Source: a virus
IMG/VR virus record: IMGVR_UViG_3300042892_001165
Span: 1-24,764 of that record
Length of the DNA: 24,764 nt
Direction: 5' to 3' (one strand)
Part shown: positions 8,265 through 19,493 of the stretch, piece after piece
Numbering within the stretch: the first letter of the stretch is position 1
Layout: every line of letters begins with the position of its first letter
The notes under the pieces: model-generated
Database searches by the model: none
What the model was told of the DNA's origin: nothing
What the model saw: the letters and a program-made list of their open reading frames with translations, nothing else
Made by a program: the position numbers and the translations under genes

Positions 8265-9092
8265 TTAATATTTAGTTTTCTTTCCTCCTCCAGTATGATA
8301 GATTTCTAAACCAGATTCATCATCAAAATGTTTCTTCATTGCTTGAACATTCCTTAAGTCATCATCTGAAAAACCAATATAAGGAACAAAATAATTGCTA
8401 ATCTTATTTTTCATAAATGCCTTTTCTTGTAATTGTCTAGAAAGGTTTTGAACGTAGGTCATAAATTCTTTCATAGCATCTACTTTTAATTGTTCAGGGT
8501 TGGCAGCCGAACCTTGACCGAAACTTACAGGGTGATATCTATTCATATCTAAATAAGATCGTACTAGTTCATCGTCAGACAAATCTTCCTCATCAGCCAA
8601 TTCTCTATACTTTTTTAAGTTTTTAACCAATTCTTTTTCACTAATACCGTGTTTGTTTTTCTTAATAAGATTATAAACAGCATTTTTAAGAATGGTTGGG
8701 GTGTGTCCCCTTGCTGTAATGATTGAAAAGACCGACCCGTTATTAACCGCCTCAACAAAATCGTCCCATGCCGGTCCTGTAGGTGCTTTCATTGCATCTC
8801 TTAAGAAACCTTCATCTCCAGGTACATTGAAGTCTCTGAACGGATTTTCATCAAAACCAACTATAGTGTGTCCCTCATAATCAAAAGGTTCTTTCCCGAT
8901 CTCAGTTCTGTATTCTGCAAAATCTTCTGTGGACATACCAACAACTTTACCCTTATCGTCTTTAGTATAAATCTTTGTTGGCATATACATAAGGTTATCG
9001 TCCCAATCAAAAGCATAATACTTCATCGTAGGTTTCATTTGATCGTGAATGATCTCCGAAATAATCTGTTTAACAACTTTTTTGTAATTCAT
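8265..9092 (-). CDS. HAD-superfamily phosphatase-like enzyme, possibly capsid-targeted
   Basis: 275 residues from the ATG at 9092. A GTG at 9107 is in frame, but it would place the TATTTAT repeat inside the gene, so the ATG is preferred. HAD motifs: KYYAFDWDDNLMYMPTKIY with Asp29/Asp31 as nucleophile and general acid (DxD), FSIITARGHTP with Thr126 as motif II, and YIGFSDDDLRNVQAMKKHF with Asp243-245 as the Mg-binding acidic motif. A helical insert of about 100 residues separates motifs II and III, suggesting a C2-type cap or recognition domain. The substrate is unknown; phosphate on a nucleic acid end or a nucleotide is possible. The first 13 residues, MNYKKVVKQIISE, resemble the T4 capsid-targeting leader. 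The gene is inserted between sheath and tube, an unusual place for an enzyme, behind the sheath terminator and its own promoter-like motif. Confidence 0.65.
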   Translation of the reverse strand: MNYKKVVKQIISEIIHDQMKPTMKYYAFDWDDNLMYMPTKIYTKDDKGKVVGMSTEDFAEYRTEIGKEPFDYEGHTIVGFDENPFRDFNVPGDEGFLRDAMKAPTGPAWDDFVEAVNNGSVFSIITARGHTPTILKNAVYNLIKKNKHGISEKELVKNLKKYRELADEEDLSDDELVRSYLDMNRYHPVSFGQGSAANPEQLKVDAMKEFMTYVQNLSRQLQEKAFMKNKISNYFVPYIGFSDDDLRNVQAMKKHFDDESGLEIYHTGGGKKTKY

Positions 9093-9107
9093 ATAAATAA
9101 ATATCAC

Positions 9108-9164: not shown

Positions 9165-12100
9165 TTATATATTCTCAAACGATGCTCCTGTCGGAGTAAT
9201 GTAGAATGTGATGTCGATGAATTCAAGTGATCTTGTAGGTTTGATATAAATCTTACCTGTCAATTGGTTTCTATCAATATCTTCAGGATCGTTGGATACC
9301 GTAACTCTAAAGTCATATAAACCTCGATCTCTTCTGATTGCATCTAAGATTGGATTAACCGCGTTTAAGAAATCTTGTCTTACTTGTGCGTCGTTTTGTT
9401 CAAACAATAATCTTACAGATACTGCTGATATCAATTTACGAGCTTGTAGTAACAATCTTCTTACGTTAATTCTGTCAAGAGCAGATTCTCTAACTTGTAA
9501 AGTTTTGTTACCCCAAATTACCGTACCTACATCAGAGAAGGTTGCAATTGGGTTAATTCTACCTATGTAAAGAATGTCTCTATCTTCTTGAGTTAACTTC
9601 TTACGAGCTTTAATACAATTAACAATACCACGAGTGTAACCCGCCGCCGCGAACCAAGGGAATGCGATGTTATCTGTTAATGCCAAGTTTCTCGTAACCT
9701 CTGCTGTTGGTGGGATGTAGATTTGAGTGTTATTAACACTATCTCTTGTCAATACCCACGGATAGTAAGTAGCGGTGTAGTTAGAGTCAATTCCTGTGTT
9801 GTCTAAGTTGTCAACCGCCTCAGTTGGGTAGATTAAATAATCTTGTCCGTTAAGAGAAGGAACATACATATCAACGTCAGGTGTAGTACACACATAAAGC
9901 GAATCCGCTCTGTTGAACTCAATCATCTCAATTGCTGACTCAACCAAGTTACTATTGTTAACATAATCAATACCCGGTGTTACAAACACGTTGATGTTTA
10001 CCGCTTCAGGGTTTGCAAATGTTTGTTGACCTAACAAGTATGCGTAGTAGTCAGAGTTTGCAAAGTTTTGAGTTCCATCACCTAAAGAAATTTCTTTAAA
10101 TGCTCCCCATCCTGTAGCGTTAGGGTATCTTGTAGAAGGACAAGCCCCTCTTAAGAATCCGGTTCTACCAATTTGGAAATTATCAGTGTTTGTTCTCCAC
10201 TCTCTGTAGATATCCCATCCGTCAAAACCACCTTGTACTAAGAATGTGAACTTACGAGCGAACAATCTATAGTAAGCGTTTGTTGGTAATTCAGGATCAG
10301 TAATGAATGGTGAATTACCACAGATGAATCTTGGGTCACCACTTGTTGAGAACTCAGGTCCGATTGTTAAACCACTTGCATTTACATCCATGTGGAAACC
10401 AGCTGATCTGTAATTAAATGGTAAACCATCAATATCACAAGTGTTGATTGGGTTTCTCTTACCAACATATTCGAAATATGCCGGATCCCAACCTAAACTA
10501 TTAGATATACCTAAGTAAGTTCTTCTTACGTTATCTCCTGGGCTAATTAAAGCATCATCATTACCCGTTGATAAACCAAATGGTGGGTTATAGATAACTT
10601 CACCAGGGAAGTCGTATTTACCTTTGATAATTGGGAATGGTGAACTAGCACCCGCATAATTTCTAAAGTTGAATCCGTTAAATCCACAAGGTAATGCGTC
10701 GATCGGAGCGTCTTCACTCATTTCAACCATAACATATTTAGAGTTCAATGCGTACTCACCATCTAATGTACCAATCTTATTAGCAACGAAGTTGTTTTCA
10801 GTTGGGTTCATTGAACAGTTTGTAAATTTCTCTATAACAACTGGATTTGCATCAGTATCAAAATAATCACGGATCAATACATCAAAAGTTAAATTGTTGT
10901 AAGTTTGATTAATGATTGAGATTTTAATTAATGTGTTTGCCGCGTCACCATCGGATACTGTATAGAATCTAAATAAGTCATAAACTTTATTACCTCTTAA
11001 TTCAGATACCACATAAGGTGAAGCCGGTGTTTGCCATTTGTCTAAGTACCAACCAATTGAGTTAGCGTCACCACTCTGTGCTGATTCTAAAGCGATTAAG
11101 TTAGGGTTTAAACCTTTGATATAACCTTTTCTCCAAGAGTAATTTAAGAATGATTGGAATACCTCTTCAGCAAAAACAGGAACTTCAATTCTTGGTTTTT
11201 GGAAGTTAGTAATACCGAACACTTTAGTTACGTATTCAGGATCATTTTGAGTTAACGATGTTTCGAACTTAAATGCCGTACCGAATTTGTCTGTCACATT
11301 AACACCGAATGTTAGGTATGGATTTTTAAGAACACCAGCATATTGACCTGCCATATCTAATGTTACTTCAGATGTACCTGTCACAGAATATGCTGGGTTA
11401 TTATCTGTTGTATATGTAGATATACCTCTTGATCTTAATGTGCTAACAACAACGTTATCGTAATCAACATAAGATGTACCTGTATAATAGTATATCTTAC
11501 CAACAATAGTACCTGAATAACAATCTATGTTTACAGGTGTTGGTGTAGGTGTTGGTGATGTGAAAGGTGAAGGTGTAATACAAGGATTAACAAACGACGG
11601 AGTCGGTGTTGGTGATGCGGTTACTCCTGGTGTAGGTGTTGGGTTAGGGAAATATGCCGTTAAACCTGACACATACGTAAAGAATGAGAAACCAGAATAA
11701 TTTGTATTACCATTATTGTTAAATAATGCGTAGTACCAAGAGTCGTTAAGTGGTGATAATAAATCAGTTTCATCTAACGATACTGAAGGAACTTCAAATA
11801 CATTAGTTTCAACATTAAATCCTGAACCATTTAAAACATCATAATCATCAGTTGCAATAGAACCGAAGTATGCGATTTGTTCGTCTTCCGCAGTATACGG
11901 ATTAGAACTTGTGATTATGTTAAAAATTAAGTTTTGGATTTGAGTATTTAATGTTGAAGTATCTCCATTAAACTCTTCGTATTGACTTAATAATAAACTT
12001 TCAATTTCTGGTGGGAATGATGTTTGATAACCAATAGTTGTTGAACTATTTGTACATCCGGTGAACTCAACACTGAATGTTAATTCTTTTGGTGTTACAC

Positions 12101-12515
12101 AAGTTGTTACACAAGTGGTAAAGTCAGTTACTGAACTTAAACACCATACATCAATCGTACTTGGGTCAACATTAGCTACAGTTGTGATAGACCAAGACGG
12201 TCCAGCATCGTAGCCAGATAAACCAAGAATTCTAGTTACAAACAATTGGTTAGATTGTTGTAAATATGCTTTTGCGATATACGCGGCTTCGTACTTTGGA
12301 ATCTGAGTATTAACAAATTTTTCAGGTGAGGTCCCACCGAATACGGTTTGGAATTCATCAAAACTTGTAATAAAGATTGGTTCAAAAGCCGGTCCTATCA
12401 AAGTTTCTCCCGCAATACCCAAAGTAGTAACTCCGACACTTTGTGCTACAAAGCTCAAGTCAACCTCTGAAGTATAGACGCCTGGTGAAACAAAAACCTT
12501 ACTGTTTGTTGCCAT
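9165..12515 (-). CDS. Contractile tail sheath protein, T4 gp18-like, with Pro/Thr-rich insert
   Basis: 1116 residues against 659 in T4 gp18. The N-terminus is a classic sheath start: FVSPGVYTSEVDLSFVAQS, GETLIGPAFEPIFITSFDEF, then FGG. The C-terminal about 130 residues carry the family core: VIWGNKTLQVRESALDRINV, RRLLLQARKLISAVSVRLLF, and late strands TGKIYIKPTRSLEFIDITFY before TPTGASFENI. The extra length is in the middle. About residues 288-330 form a low-complexity hinge (PTPTPGVTASPTPTP, then PFTSPTPTPTPVNIDC) with Cys on both sides, followed by beta-rich segments probably displayed on the tail surface. Sheath subunits wrap the tube and contract to drive it through the envelope. The gene has its own promoter-like motif, a 31-nt A/T-rich leader and a terminator, so it is probably a single highly expressed unit. 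Confidence 0.92.
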   Translation of the reverse strand: MATNSKVFVSPGVYTSEVDLSFVAQSVGVTTLGIAGETLIGPAFEPIFITSFDEFQTVFGGTSPEKFVNTQIPKYEAAYIAKAYLQQSNQLFVTRILGLSGYDAGPSWSITTVANVDPSTIDVWCLSSVTDFTTCVTTCVTPKELTFSVEFTGCTNSSTTIGYQTSFPPEIESLLLSQYEEFNGDTSTLNTQIQNLIFNIITSSNPYTAEDEQIAYFGSIATDDYDVLNGSGFNVETNVFEVPSVSLDETDLLSPLNDSWYYALFNNNGNTNYSGFSFFTYVSGLTAYFPNPTPTPGVTASPTPTPSFVNPCITPSPFTSPTPTPTPVNIDCYSGTIVGKIYYYTGTSYVDYDNVVVSTLRSRGISTYTTDNNPAYSVTGTSEVTLDMAGQYAGVLKNPYLTFGVNVTDKFGTAFKFETSLTQNDPEYVTKVFGITNFQKPRIEVPVFAEEVFQSFLNYSWRKGYIKGLNPNLIALESAQSGDANSIGWYLDKWQTPASPYVVSELRGNKVYDLFRFYTVSDGDAANTLIKISIINQTYNNLTFDVLIRDYFDTDANPVVIEKFTNCSMNPTENNFVANKIGTLDGEYALNSKYVMVEMSEDAPIDALPCGFNGFNFRNYAGASSPFPIIKGKYDFPGEVIYNPPFGLSTGNDDALISPGDNVRRTYLGISNSLGWDPAYFEYVGKRNPINTCDIDGLPFNYRSAGFHMDVNASGLTIGPEFSTSGDPRFICGNSPFITDPELPTNAYYRLFARKFTFLVQGGFDGWDIYREWRTNTDNFQIGRTGFLRGACPSTRYPNATGWGAFKEISLGDGTQNFANSDYYAYLLGQQTFANPEAVNINVFVTPGIDYVNNSNLVESAIEMIEFNRADSLYVCTTPDVDMYVPSLNGQDYLIYPTEAVDNLDNTGIDSNYTATYYPWVLTRDSVNNTQIYIPPTAEVTRNLALTDNIAFPWFAAAGYTRGIVNCIKARKKLTQEDRDILYIGRINPIATFSDVGTVIWGNKTLQVRESALDRINVRRLLLQARKLISAVSVRLLFEQNDAQVRQDFLNAVNPILDAIRRDRGLYDFRVTVSNDPEDIDRNQLTGKIYIKPTRSLEFIDITFYITPTGASFENI
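11525..11650 (-). repeat. Degenerate Pro/Thr-coding repeats inside the sheath gene
   Basis: The plus strand shows imperfect iterations of GGTGTTGGTGTAGGTGTTGG, read on the minus strand as CCA/CCT and ACA/ACC codons. The tract splits into two blocks separated by a Cys-containing stretch. Similar DNA occurs at 23040-23158. Confidence 0.7.
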
Positions 12516-14402: not shown

Positions 14403-16172
14403 TTGGATAACACTAAAACACTTATTGAACATAAGGCTTTGGATTTACTTGAGGTATATAGTGGAGCAAATAACTACATTCTATATCTAAAACACAAGAA
14501 AGAAGTGTCAAGTAAATTTTATCCTACAAGAAGTCAGGCTGAATATATTACAACATATTATGACACCGCACCAAAGGTTGCTCGTAAATGGGTTGAGTTA
14601 GACACATACTTCGCAAAAAAGTTCGCAGAAGAAAAATATCTACTACAAGTTCCTGAACAAATTTACGTTGAGAAACTTTTGGTTGAAAAAGAAAAATCAT
14701 ATCATGTTTGGGGAAAGTTTTTTGATTCAGACAAATTAAGTGAGCTTTGGGTACCAAAATCGGCACTCATCAAAACCCATAAAGTTGAGTCCGTTAGTAT
14801 TGATTACTCAAAGTATTCTCACCGACCACCATTAGAACATCAAAAAATCGCAATTGAAAAATTAGCAGGTTCAAAACGATTTATTCTTGCCGATGATATG
14901 GGTCTTGGTAAAACAACATCAACAATTATCGCAGCGTTAGAGGCGGGTTCTAAAAAAGTTCTCATTGTGTGTCCCGCGTCTTTAAAGATAAATTGGCAAA
15001 GAGAAATCGCAAATTATTCAGATAGACCTGTTTTTATTGCGGAAGGAAAGAAATTCTCAACCGAACATGATTTTGTTATTATAAATTACGACATCCTTAA
15101 AAACTTTCACGACTCAGACCCAAAGAAAAAAGATGAGTCATTATTATTGCAGAGTGGATTTGATTTAGTGATTTTGGATGAAGCACATATGATCTCAAAT
15201 GTTCAAGCACAAAGAACAAAGATCATAAATAGTTTTGCAAAAAAAGTAGATAAGGTTTGGTTATTAACGGGAACACCTATGACATCTCGTCCTATGAACT
15301 ACTACAACTTATTGAACTTAATCGAGAGTCCTGTTGCTCAGAATTGGAAAGCATACGCAATTAGATATTGTCAAGGGTTTCAATTCACTGCCGGTAAAAG
15401 AAAGGTTTGGAACGTAATGGGAGCATCAAATCTTGAGGAATTAAGAGATAGAACATCAAAACAAATTCTTCGTAGATTAAAAGAGGAAGTTTTAGATTTA
15501 CCTGATAAAATTATCACACCTGTTTATTTGAGGTTAAAATCAAAAGAGTATGAAGATTTGATGGGTGAATATTTTGATTGGTATGATAGAAACCCTGATG
15601 AGTCATCATCTCTTACGGTTCAGTTCTCTAAACTAATGAAAGTTAGAAAGGTTATTGCAAATGAAAAAACAAAACAAACAATTGAGTTTGTTGAGAACAT
15701 TTTAGAACAAGGTAAGAAAGTTATTATATTCACCAACTTTACGGACACACTTCAAACGATCTATCAACATTTCGGAAAACAAGCGGTTTATCTTGATGGT
15801 AGTTGTTCTAATGCGGTTCGTCAACAAGCTGTTGACTCATTTCAAAACGATGATAAAACAAGAGTATTTGTTGGGAACTTAAAAGCCGCGGGTGTTGGTT
15901 TAACTTTAACTGCTGCTGAGGTTGTTATAATGAATGACTTGTCTTTTGTTCCCGCAGAACACGCGCAAGCTGAAGATAGAGCGTATCGTTATGGTCAAAA
16001 ATCTAATGTATTGGTTTATTATCCTTTGTTTGAAAATACAATAGAGGGGGCAATCTATGACATTCTAAATCGTAAAAAACAGATAATCAGAACCGTTATG
16101 GGTGACGAACAACCTGAAAATACCGGTGACATAGTTGAGGAAATCTTAAATCTAATTAATAAGAGACGATAA
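14403..16172 (+). CDS. SNF2-family DNA helicase/translocase
   Basis: 589 residues with all major SF2/SNF2 motifs: QKIAIEKLAG region (Q-like), motif I ILADDMGLGKT (Asp164-Thr171), Ia VLIVCPASLKINW, II LVILDEAHMIS (DEAH 259-262), III WLLTGTPMTSRP, IV KKVIIFTNFTDTLQ, V AAGVGLTLTAAEVVI and VI AEDRAYRYGQ (523-532). It is closest in type to SMARCAL1/HARP-like annealing helicases and bacterial SNF2 proteins; in phages such enzymes take part in fork remodelling, recombination-dependent replication or repair, as UvsW does in T4. The N-terminal 140 residues carry no domain I know. The start is TTG: a TAA at 14391 closes the frame just upstream and no ATG follows nearby. It heads the plus-strand block, divergent from the neck genes. 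Confidence 0.88.
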   Translation: MDNTKTLIEHKALDLLEVYSGANNYILYLKHKKEVSSKFYPTRSQAEYITTYYDTAPKVARKWVELDTYFAKKFAEEKYLLQVPEQIYVEKLLVEKEKSYHVWGKFFDSDKLSELWVPKSALIKTHKVESVSIDYSKYSHRPPLEHQKIAIEKLAGSKRFILADDMGLGKTTSTIIAALEAGSKKVLIVCPASLKINWQREIANYSDRPVFIAEGKKFSTEHDFVIINYDILKNFHDSDPKKKDESLLLQSGFDLVILDEAHMISNVQAQRTKIINSFAKKVDKVWLLTGTPMTSRPMNYYNLLNLIESPVAQNWKAYAIRYCQGFQFTAGKRKVWNVMGASNLEELRDRTSKQILRRLKEEVLDLPDKIITPVYLRLKSKEYEDLMGEYFDWYDRNPDESSSLTVQFSKLMKVRKVIANEKTKQTIEFVENILEQGKKVIIFTNFTDTLQTIYQHFGKQAVYLDGSCSNAVRQQAVDSFQNDDKTRVFVGNLKAAGVGLTLTAAEVVIMNDLSFVPAEHAQAEDRAYRYGQKSNVLVYYPLFENTIEGAIYDILNRKKQIIRTVMGDEQPENTGDIVEEILNLINKRR

Positions 16173-16201: not shown

Positions 16202-18337
16202 ATGAAACTTTCAATCAAATACGAAAACCCCGATTTAAAAAAACACAAAGACCTTGTTAATGAGTTTGTAATACTTTTGCAACAAGAATATCCATTAAAA
16301 AAAGATTTAAAAGTACTCTTTGTGGATGGTCGAAAGGGTGACATGTCTACGGGAAGTAGACGAGGTGATAACCTAATTAAAGTTTTAGCTAAAGGTAGAT
16401 TAAATCGTGATATCATGAGAACACTCGCACATGAGTGGGTTCATGAATATCAAATGACTATTTTAGGTAGAGAACCCGGACCAAACATCGGTGGTAAAAA
16501 CGAAGATGAGGCAAACGCATTTGCTGGTCAATTAGTTAAAAAGTTTGAAGAAAAACACCCTGACTTAGAAAAACTTATGTATGAAAACAAAGGTATTAAT
16601 GGTAGGGTTAATATTTTATCAGAACAAATTTTATTAACAGAGAAAGAAACAATCAAAGAAAATTTATTGGTTGAGATGAAAAAAGTAGGTATTGAAAAAC
16701 TACCTTACTCATATTCAGCGTTACAAAGATTTATCGATTCTAAGACGATGAATATTCACTATAACAAACACTATAAGGGTTATGTTGATAAGTTGAACAA
16801 ATCGATCAAGGATAAAGAGGGTGATATGGATTTAGAAGAAATTGTAAAATCCATTAGTAAGTTTGATGATAAAGTTAGGAACAATGCCGGTGGAGCATTT
16901 AATCACGCTTTGTTTTGGAAAATGTTATCACCAAAGAAACAATTACCAAAAGGTGAAATTTTAAAAAAGATTAAAGAAGATTTTGGTAACATCAAAAAAA
17001 TGAAAGATGAATTTAATCAAGCCGCTAAAGATCGTTTTGGTTCTGGTTGGGCTTGGTTATATTTGACAAAGGGTGGTAAGTTAAAAATTATGTCCACACC
17101 AAATCAAGACAATCCACTTATGAACATTGTTAAAGGTGGTGGATATCCTTTGTTGGGTCTTGATGTTTGGGAACACGCTTACTATCTAAAGTATCAAAAC
17201 AAACGTGATGAATATATCAATAAGTTTTGGGATGTCGTAAATTGGGAATTTGTTGAGGAACTCTACACGTCAAAAAACAATAAGAAAAATCTGAAAGAAG
17301 ATATTGAGGATAGTGATGTAATAACGGAAGCAATGAAAAAATCCTCCTTTCCTCTAACCCCAACTCAACTTAGAAAGTTAATTAATACTCAATATGAAGG
17401 TTGTTTTAATCAACAATTCAAATACGGATGTATTGGTAAAATACAAAAAAGAAAATGTAAAACAGACATTGGTGTTTTAGGTGGTGATTTTGCGGAAAGG
17501 AAATATGGTGGAACAAGTCAATGGTCTATCATAAATCGTTTTGATACCAATTCATTGGTTCATGCTGAAATACAAAAAATATGGATGGAAGAAACCGAAG
17601 GGTTGGAAGATTTCGGTAATTGGATTAATTCACATGCCTATGATCTTTTTTCTAATGATGGTATGTACACCGAAAGATTAGTTAACCTTAATAAAACCAC
17701 CATTGAGTCCGGGCATTTAAATGAAGATTACGCTAAAAACATAATCAGAGAATCTTATAAATTACTTCCTGAAAATGAAGGTATTACTTACGAATTGTAC
17801 GAACATTGTTCAGGTGACGTTAACGATAGAAAAAAAGGTCAGGACATCGTTCTAAAGTTTAAGAATGGGGAAACGATTTATTTCCAAGTCAAACCTGTTG
17901 AAAGTAATAATATTAAATTATACGATGGTGGTGAAAGAGGTTATTATTTCGTAATTCCGTCTTGGGTTAAATCAACTAAGTATAAGAGTGATAATGTTGA
18001 TGTTTTTGTTTTTGTCGATAGAAAAGAACAAAAGTATTTAATGTTTAGAAATGATCCAAGTAGAATATTAACAATAGATAACCCTAACTATACGTCAACA
18101 TTTTTAATTTATTTTTATGAATTACCATTGAAAAGTAATTTCAAAGTAGACGTAACTAGTGAACCTATTAAGACACCAATCAAAAAAACTTTAGAGAGGG
18201 ACAAACAAAAAGAAATACAATATTATCAAGACAGGATAAAGTATTTCAAAAACAAAATCAAAGAATTAGGTAGTTCTGAATCTCTTTCAGAGAGAGTTAA
18301 TTTCTATAAGAAACAATTGGAAAAAATTATTATCTAA
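16202..18337 (+). CDS. Fusion: zinc metallopeptidase, Mn-type superoxide dismutase, nuclease-like domain
   Basis: 711 residues in three parts. Residues 1-130: zincin-like peptidase, HEWVH at 77-81 (HExxH) and a probable third ligand in EDEANAFAG (Glu101 or Glu103). Residues 167-355: complete Fe/Mn superoxide dismutase, starting LPYSYSALQRFIDSKTMNIH, with metal ligands His186, His235, Asp321 and His325 (DVWEH). NNAGGAFNH and STPNQDNPL follow the manganese type. SOD converts superoxide to peroxide and oxygen. Residues 380-650: unknown, with Asp548 in KKGQDIVLKF and Gln562-x-Lys564 in YFQVKP, resembling the QxK variant of the PD-(D/E)xK nuclease core (Mrr-like). A Lys/Glu coiled coil ends the protein. 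The linkers at 135-160 and 360-380 contain several (I/L)xE tripeptides. No signal peptide or membrane segment is seen. Peptidase and SOD parts are well supported, the nuclease part is inference. Confidence 0.82.
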   Translation: MKLSIKYENPDLKKHKDLVNEFVILLQQEYPLKKDLKVLFVDGRKGDMSTGSRRGDNLIKVLAKGRLNRDIMRTLAHEWVHEYQMTILGREPGPNIGGKNEDEANAFAGQLVKKFEEKHPDLEKLMYENKGINGRVNILSEQILLTEKETIKENLLVEMKKVGIEKLPYSYSALQRFIDSKTMNIHYNKHYKGYVDKLNKSIKDKEGDMDLEEIVKSISKFDDKVRNNAGGAFNHALFWKMLSPKKQLPKGEILKKIKEDFGNIKKMKDEFNQAAKDRFGSGWAWLYLTKGGKLKIMSTPNQDNPLMNIVKGGGYPLLGLDVWEHAYYLKYQNKRDEYINKFWDVVNWEFVEELYTSKNNKKNLKEDIEDSDVITEAMKKSSFPLTPTQLRKLINTQYEGCFNQQFKYGCIGKIQKRKCKTDIGVLGGDFAERKYGGTSQWSIINRFDTNSLVHAEIQKIWMEETEGLEDFGNWINSHAYDLFSNDGMYTERLVNLNKTTIESGHLNEDYAKNIIRESYKLLPENEGITYELYEHCSGDVNDRKKGQDIVLKFKNGETIYFQVKPVESNNIKLYDGGERGYYFVIPSWVKSTKYKSDNVDVFVFVDRKEQKYLMFRNDPSRILTIDNPNYTSTFLIYFYELPLKSNFKVDVTSEPIKTPIKKTLERDKQKEIQYYQDRIKYFKNKIKELGSSESLSERVNFYKKQLEKIII

Positions 18338-18365: not shown

Positions 18366-19493
18366 ATGGCAATTATCAACGAACCAGAAAGAAGTGAATT
18401 CTACCAAAAAGTAAGACACCTTTTAGGTGCTCCTTTAAGATCGGTGGAATTAGAAGATGAAATGATGGATACTCTTTTGGAGTACTCTATTGATGACTAT
18501 ACCCAATATGTTCAAGATTGGTTAACTGAGTCCCAATGGACCTCATTATATAATTTAAATCTCGACACACAATCTTTATCAAGAGCATTTGTTACGAAAA
18601 GTTTGGACTTTGAGACAAGGTATACATATGCTTATTCTAAGATTGTTGGTCTACAAGCAGGTGGTGATTGGGAAATTAAAAAAGATTATATACAACTTGT
18701 TCCCAACCAACAAATTTACGAAATACCTGCGGGTCGTGAAATAAATGAGGTTTTATGGTTTACTCCATCAACATTAAATAATTTAATGTTTGGTTTAGGT
18801 GGTTTTGCTGGTATTGGAACTGGAACTGGTTTAGGTGGTGGTGGTGGACTTGCTCAAATTGGTAATATGGCGGGAAGTTATTATTTAACACCCGTTTTTG
18901 ATACGTTATTAAGAATGCAAGAGGTTAACATACAAAGAAGAATATTTGCCGGTGATTTAACATATTACATTACCGCACTTCCGGGTGGTAAAAAAGCATT
19001 ACACCTTTTAAATACACCTGGTGGTAAGTTTGACTTTGGTAATCAAGAATTGGCTCAGGGTCAAGTTTGGTATTGGTATTATGATACTTCACAAGGTGAT
19101 AGGGACAAATGTTTGGCAGATAATCCAGATATCGTATTATTACCTTCTGACGTTCCGTATAATAAGATTAGTTGGTACAAACTTAATAACCCCGCACAAA
19201 TTTGGGTGAGAAGGTGGTTTACAGCTTATTGTAAAGAAACACTGGCAAGAGTTCGTGGTAAGTTTAGTGGTAATTTAAAAGCACCTGATGGTGATTTGAC
19301 TATGGATTACGCATCTTTATCAACAGAGGCTAAAGATGAAAAAACAAAACTTATAGACGAATTGATAGGACCTGAAGGTAGGTTAACAAGATTACGTCCT
19401 GAAAAGATTATGGAAAGAGAAGCATTACTTGCCGAAAACTTAAACAAACAACTTAAGTTTAGAGCAATGCCTCGTCAAATATATGTAATTTAA
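18366..19493 (+). CDS. Neck protein candidate, T4 gp13-like
   Basis: 375 residues. The N-terminus is acidic and helical (FYQKVRHLLGAPLRSVELED, then LLEYSIDDYTQYVQDWL). A beta segment follows (DYIQLVPNQQIYEIPAGREI and EVLWFTPSTL). The C-terminal third holds the pattern WVRRWFTAYCKETLARVRGK, FSGNLKAPDGDLTMDY, then helices to the end. That combination matches T4-like gp13 neck/connector proteins, which close the portal and accept the tail. A glycine-rich loop of about 40 residues in the middle (GFAGIGTGTGLGGGGG) appears to be an insertion; T4 gp13 has 309 residues. Unlike T4, where 13, 14 and 15 are adjacent, this gene is on the opposite strand and 4 kb from the other neck genes. It is followed after 3 nt by the next gene, so the two are probably cotranslated. 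Confidence 0.6.
   Translation: MAIINEPERSEFYQKVRHLLGAPLRSVELEDEMMDTLLEYSIDDYTQYVQDWLTESQWTSLYNLNLDTQSLSRAFVTKSLDFETRYTYAYSKIVGLQAGGDWEIKKDYIQLVPNQQIYEIPAGREINEVLWFTPSTLNNLMFGLGGFAGIGTGTGLGGGGGLAQIGNMAGSYYLTPVFDTLLRMQEVNIQRRIFAGDLTYYITALPGGKKALHLLNTPGGKFDFGNQELAQGQVWYWYYDTSQGDRDKCLADNPDIVLLPSDVPYNKISWYKLNNPAQIWVRRWFTAYCKETLARVRGKFSGNLKAPDGDLTMDYASLSTEAKDEKTKLIDELIGPEGRLTRLRPEKIMEREALLAENLNKQLKFRAMPRQIYVI

Follow-up and report, generated by a model that had tools for sequence, protein, structure and literature searches.

A superoxide dismutase of large phages within a modular polyprotein whose joints resemble prohead protease sites

The gene described here joins a zinc metallopeptidase, a Mn-type superoxide dismutase (SOD) and a nuclease-like module in one chain, and is probably the precursor of virion cargo that a prohead protease would cut into three. 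It lies in what we call the window, the whole stretch of 24,764 nucleotides that was analysed (IMG/VR record IMGVR_UViG_3300042892_001165, positions 1 to 24,764); the gene, its parts and its neighbours are located in Table 1. Because both joints between the enzymes carry capsid-protease cut signals, packing in the head and cutting into separate enzymes are probable. The initial annotation of this DNA had described a single three-part enzyme; since the joints resemble cut sites, three separate proteins are the more probable working products. Two points go beyond that annotation and are new: the locus is modular, and the joints resemble leaders of the capsid type. The domains with their intact active sites, the swapping of modules, the equivalence of leaders and linkers, and the protease gene of related genomes are established at the level of sequence; from these we infer packaging and cleavage.

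Table 1. Location of the precursor gene, its parts and the neighbours that border the cargo site (positions in the window)
Feature	Position	Strand	Evidence
Whole precursor, 711 aa, 83 kDa: zincin + leader + SOD + leader + C1 nuclease-like	16202..18337	+	Open frame, Pfam SOD, relatives
Zincin-type metallopeptidase, residues 1-127 (H77, E78, H81, E103)	16202..16582	+	Invariant residues, model, structure matches
Linker 1 = SOD leader, residues 129-163; LSE, LTE, IKE, LVE/M	16586..16690	+	N-terminus of SOD-first relatives
Mn-type superoxide dismutase, residues 165-353 (H186, H235, Q302, D321, H325)	16694..17260	+	Pfam, solved relatives, ligands
Linker 2 = third-module leader, residues 356-380; LKE, ITE/A	17267..17341	+	Leaders of stand-alone C1 genes
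C1 module, PD-(D/E)xK nuclease-like, residues 382-711 (E508, D548, Q562-x-K564)	17345..18334	+	Alignment, model, structure matches
SNF2-type helicase neighbour, left edge of cargo site	14403..16172	+	Pfam SNF2-rel_dom E 1.9e-30
Neck (head-tail adaptor-like) neighbour, right edge of cargo site	18366..19493	+	phrog_211 E 6e-10

The central domain had been read as a Mn-type SOD with His186, His235, Asp321 and His325 as metal ligands, and this numbering proved exact: the three histidines and one aspartate are in place, and Q302 is the glutamine of the Mn type. Both Pfam domains were found over their cut-offs, Sod_Fe_N (PF00081) at residues 165-243 (E 1.2e-21, 77 bits) and Sod_Fe_C (PF02777) at residues 249-353 (E 9.9e-41, 138 bits), so the profile search places in the Fe/Mn SOD family the region that had been assigned to it as residues 167-355. 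The top solved relative is 6gsc ('Superoxide dismutase', E 8e-69), followed by 5a9g ('manganese superoxide dismutase', E 2e-68). Is the active site equally intact in the relatives? Every SOD ligand is kept in 98/98 distinct related modules from IMG/VR, counted by alignment column, which argues that the enzyme is active, as we predict. A crude text-pattern count had hinted at ligand loss; by column count, none was lost.

Where did this SOD come from? The best-matching cellular SODs (the 80 closest found) are mostly from Bacteroidota. In a quick tree the phage SODs form a single clade (SH-aLRT 100) on a long stem, and on this topology the SOD of the phage group is one old capture. Since most peptidase-first proteins cluster (SH-aLRT 97) inside the diversity of SOD-first proteins in the quick tree, the peptidase was probably added in front of the SOD at a later time; this would account for the present internal position of the leader. 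The initial annotation called SOD genes rare in tailed phages. This stands for annotated phages, but in the present phage group SOD occupies most of the neck loci sampled, and occurs once per contig in the six large contigs carrying the gene. The carriers are very large freshwater phages whose hosts are probably Bacteroidota. SODs 45-50% identical to the query are also present in several unannotated records named as Staphylococcus, Listeria or Enterococcus phages (OR850395, OR844989, OR846594 and similar), which may be bacterial contigs deposited as phage.

The HExxH peptidase proposed in front of the SOD has a zincin fold in the model. The motif is H77-E78-x-x-H81; these residues and E103, the third acidic ligand, are invariant in the N-domain alignment of the window with related loci that was used for modelling. 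The model (pLDDT 90.6) matches Wss1 with a probability of 1.00 and several zincins with Z 8.9-10, and the domain thus combines HExxH, third acidic ligand and fold, as zincins do. Pfam profiles of the SprT-like and M78 families gave weak matches in some relatives (best E 0.006 and 0.035, respectively) and none for the N-domain of the window itself; with family profiles weak and in relatives only, we label the domain a zincin without assigning a family. The zincin also exists as a stand-alone gene with no fused SOD: cyanophage S-SRM01 has one, as do at least 129 related stretches (L082:3944-4342, L177-L256).

Behind the SOD, the 'QxK' of the initial annotation corresponds to Q562-x-K564, which is accompanied by D548. 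Together with E508 these residues are invariant in 14 sequences, in the pattern of D, Q-x-K and helix Glu. The model of this module, C1 (pLDDT 88.6), has the homing nuclease I-Ssp6803I as its top Foldseek match (probability 1.00, with a moderate E of 4e-3), and the list of a structure aligner is headed by nucleases at Z 7.1-7.3, below the decisive level. Residues and fold agree on a nuclease-like region, although the fold scores are only moderate; on sequence and model, C1 is likely a PD-(D/E)xK nuclease. A search of annotated phages gave no protein match to C1. Relatives have at least three further third modules, namely C2 (L034-L058), which has a conserved E-x-K, one in L269, L318 and others, and one in L296, L301 and L332; none of the third modules other than C1, C2 included, has a firm family in Pfam or PHROGs. 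Profiles of the N-domain, C1 and C2 searched against solved structures gave nothing useful.

Compared across relatives, the locus is modular, with the SOD as a hub that stands alone or has the peptidase ahead and one of several swappable modules after it. We distinguished 119 SOD-containing proteins, which were collected by seeded searches, so that the counts are not natural frequencies. The architecture of the window, peptidase, SOD and C1, accounts for 44 of the 119; SOD with another module follows with 25, peptidase, SOD and C2 with 21, peptidase and SOD only with 12, and peptidase, SOD and another module with 7. SOD with a short tail (5/119), SOD with C1 and C2 (3/119) and SOD with C1 (2/119) complete the set. 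The helicase and neck genes take the same positions in the loci of relatives, the neck gene of the window beginning 28 bases past the precursor end on the same strand. A survey that took a distant relative's neck gene as its anchor found various occupants of the site between helicase and neck: SOD-first proteins, a lone C1, SOD followed by C2 as a gene of its own, or a lone module of another kind. In one locus (L158) two extra modules follow the SOD, and these resemble a pair of neighbouring stand-alone genes whose products begin MKIIITES. A short tail with ILES persists in the SOD-only proteins of 257-262 aa (L275, L276, L280, L290, L308); it may be what is left of a lost module, or a C-terminal propeptide. 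In another relative (L069:8001-10145) the frame is broken within the SOD into 190 + 506 aa, by a sequencing error or in a decaying copy. The window holds no tRNA or Rfam RNA.

What joins these modules? Both linkers of the window protein carry a conserved L/I-x-E signal, a point absent from the initial annotation, and the main cut in linker 1 is predicted after E158 (nt 16675), that in linker 2 after E376 (nt 17329). In SOD-first relatives the segment equivalent to linker 1 is the N-terminus of the protein itself, e.g. MKKIEEKINLITEQLIIEEKKENQTLFLTE/MKKIGIEKLPYA. Where linker 2 lies, stand-alone C1 genes have leaders such as MKEIILEILKEYIKENINED ahead of the conserved module start. Stand-alone C2 genes begin like MKILISESQ; the stand-alone forms of C1, C2 and the small L158 modules each have a leader of their own. 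Among 104 distinct SOD modules, P1 of the site preceding the SOD is Glu wherever the site is internal (72/72) and wherever it belongs to a complete N-terminus (31/31); P3 is I or L, with V in five, and P2 takes many residues. The published cut motif of T4 gp21 is L/I-X-E (PMC9026906), a rule that the pre-SOD site obeys in its sequence. The density of L/I-x-E is 0.078 in linker 1 and 0.082 in N-terminal leaders, about ten times that in the peptidase and SOD domains (0.008). Behind the SOD the triplet is found in 107/107 proteins that have further sequence and in 0/12 that end after the SOD, counted with an offset and with L or I only at P3, V being excluded because the end of the SOD domain (VEE) confounds the count. 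Composition-keeping shuffles gave far lower counts of L/I-x-E than observed, a comparison that overstates significance because the sequences are related.

Could the linkers be simply flexible spacers, rich in Glu and Lys, of an uncut three-domain enzyme that is made late and works in the infected cell? The domains are intact in a single frame, the linkers are indeed rich in Lys, Glu and Asn, and the plain SODs of other large phages are leaderless and lie among genes of cell function. A spacer, however, need not fix L or I at P3 and Glu at P1 while P2 varies; the linker is the N-terminus of other family members; and the site vanishes when no module follows. Given the conservation of P1 and P3 and the 107/107 versus 0/12 split, we judge linkers that serve only as spacers, and an uncut enzyme with them, unlikely.

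Cleavage at these sites would call for a protease, and a T4-type S77 prohead protease is present in 4/8 related contigs; the window stops short of head genes. One relative (L174) encodes a C1 homologue as a separate gene, flanked by the prohead protease gene on one side and by the scaffold and capsid genes on the other. The gp23-type capsid protein of related phages has a propeptide ending in FLINEA, which contains the same motif and resembles FLTEA, the site in T4 gp23. The signal is also enriched across proteomes: in the first 35 residues of the proteins of two contigs (273 and 291 kb), L/I-x-E counts exceed those of interior windows (181 vs 95+-9 and 172 vs 107+-9). The sequences of these contigs suggest dozens of packaged proteins without an assigned function. 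Many of their proteins (L083-L111) start leader-like (MKIIITES..., MKRIVRLTESDLTRIVRRVISEQ...) and are rich in L/I-x-E. Ten such leader-bearing proteins were scanned with Pfam; one matched, with M23 peptidase and tail lysozyme domains, and the other nine had no match. In the window, the minus-strand gene at 8265-9107, between the sheath and tube genes, encodes a protein that starts with the leader-like MNYKKVVKQIISEIIHDQ and continues with MKYYAFDWDDNL, a stretch resembling a HAD phosphatase motif; it has no Pfam match and is possibly another packaged enzyme. The tail sheath itself (9165-12515, minus strand) is very long (1116 aa), and sheath profiles match its last 200-300 residues only.

Might the N-terminal zincin cut the polyprotein itself? 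It stands at the front of the chain with a complete active site, and processing by zincins has been proposed for the metallopeptidases of polyvalent proteins (PMC5512222). Yet the sites are equally kept in SOD-first proteins that have no zincin, many unrelated proteins in these genomes begin with motifs of this kind, and the site rule matches the prohead protease (PMC9026906); we regard self-cleavage as quite improbable. That the frame is an assembly chimera, conceivable for a short metagenomic contig, is effectively refuted, because the protein recurs at 99.9-100% identity in two further IMG/VR contigs and the three-part order, which it had been proposed to seek in viral metagenomes, is identical in about 30 contigs at 55-72% identity.

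On balance we favour the reading in which a modular polyprotein is split within the capsid by the head-maturation protease of the phage; a single gene and a single packaging event would then supply several enzymes, an active Mn-SOD included, while cassettes of leader plus domain are gained and lost. The precursor would probably be expressed late, jointly with the neck gene just downstream, and its in-chain leader segments would recruit it to the prohead core. As the head matures, the T4-type S77 protease would cut after L/I-x-E at both joints, leaving in the capsid a zinc peptidase of ~16-18 kDa, a Mn-SOD of ~25 kDa and a PD-(D/E)xK-like protein of ~39 kDa. On ejection into the cell, the peptidase and the nuclease-like protein could attack host proteins and DNA, or those of competitors; the SOD would remove superoxide, whether within the particle or, as infection begins, within the cell. 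Delivery with the DNA, which the initial annotation had raised, finds strong if indirect support in the joint signature, the S77 protease and the C1 gene of the head cluster, and it is from these that we infer packaging and ejection.

Several points count against the cargo reading. The leader is internal in peptidase-first forms, the window protein among them, and N-terminal in SOD-first relatives; we therefore do not file this protein as plain T4-type cargo, and propose only that it works like one. The stand-alone peptidase of L172 has no leader, and further L/I-x-E triplets lie inside C1. A folded SOD dimer would probably need unfolding to pass the tail tube.

If the cargo reading is right, this would be a tailed-phage SOD with a likely role in the virion, and would clearly exemplify a phage cargo polyprotein with capsid-protease sites as joints. 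From sequence alone, the leader rule could serve to predict many of the proteins that uncultured giant phages package. It would become testable whether antioxidant enzymes are brought into the cell or shield the DNA inside the particle, and in what way internal cargo is put together and exchanged. We found no open-access report of a SOD within a cleavable phage polyprotein, and no virion-proteome paper for Flavobacterium phage immuto, which is among the closest cultured phages by capsid protein.

How does this protein compare with known systems? Fe/Mn-type SODs occur in other large tailed phages, the PA5oct-like Pseudomonas phages and Vibrio phage 2.275.O; unlike the SOD described here, these are stand-alone genes, 27-30% identical, with no fusion or leader seen. 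For giant eukaryotic viruses, a SOD is reported among the particle proteins (PMC9405923), but the Megavirus enzyme cited there is a Cu,Zn-SOD, of another fold and from a virus that infects eukaryotes. The polyvalent proteins of phages and conjugative elements are likewise chains of many domains that include a zincin metallopeptidase (PMC5512222), and the precursor, with at least two effector-type domains per chain including a zincin, shares this property; superoxide is absent from that account, and the joints here fit prohead protease sites. In the phiKZ-like giant phage SPN3US, head proteins are cut after Glu by the prohead protease (PMC5694885); its ejection proteins have N-terminal propeptides with A-x-E or S/A-x-E, whereas L/I-x-E is found here at the joints between enzymes. 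In T4, the gp21-cut cargo proteins IPI-III and Alt have, as here, a short leader ending in L/I-x-E, and T4 shares with the related genomes an S77 protease and a gp23-type capsid protein. The capsid-targeting sequence of T4 is N-terminal, in contrast to the internal leader of the peptidase-first proteins; unlike IPI-III and Alt, the phages described here would package several enzymes per chain, with internal leaders and a SOD in the cargo.
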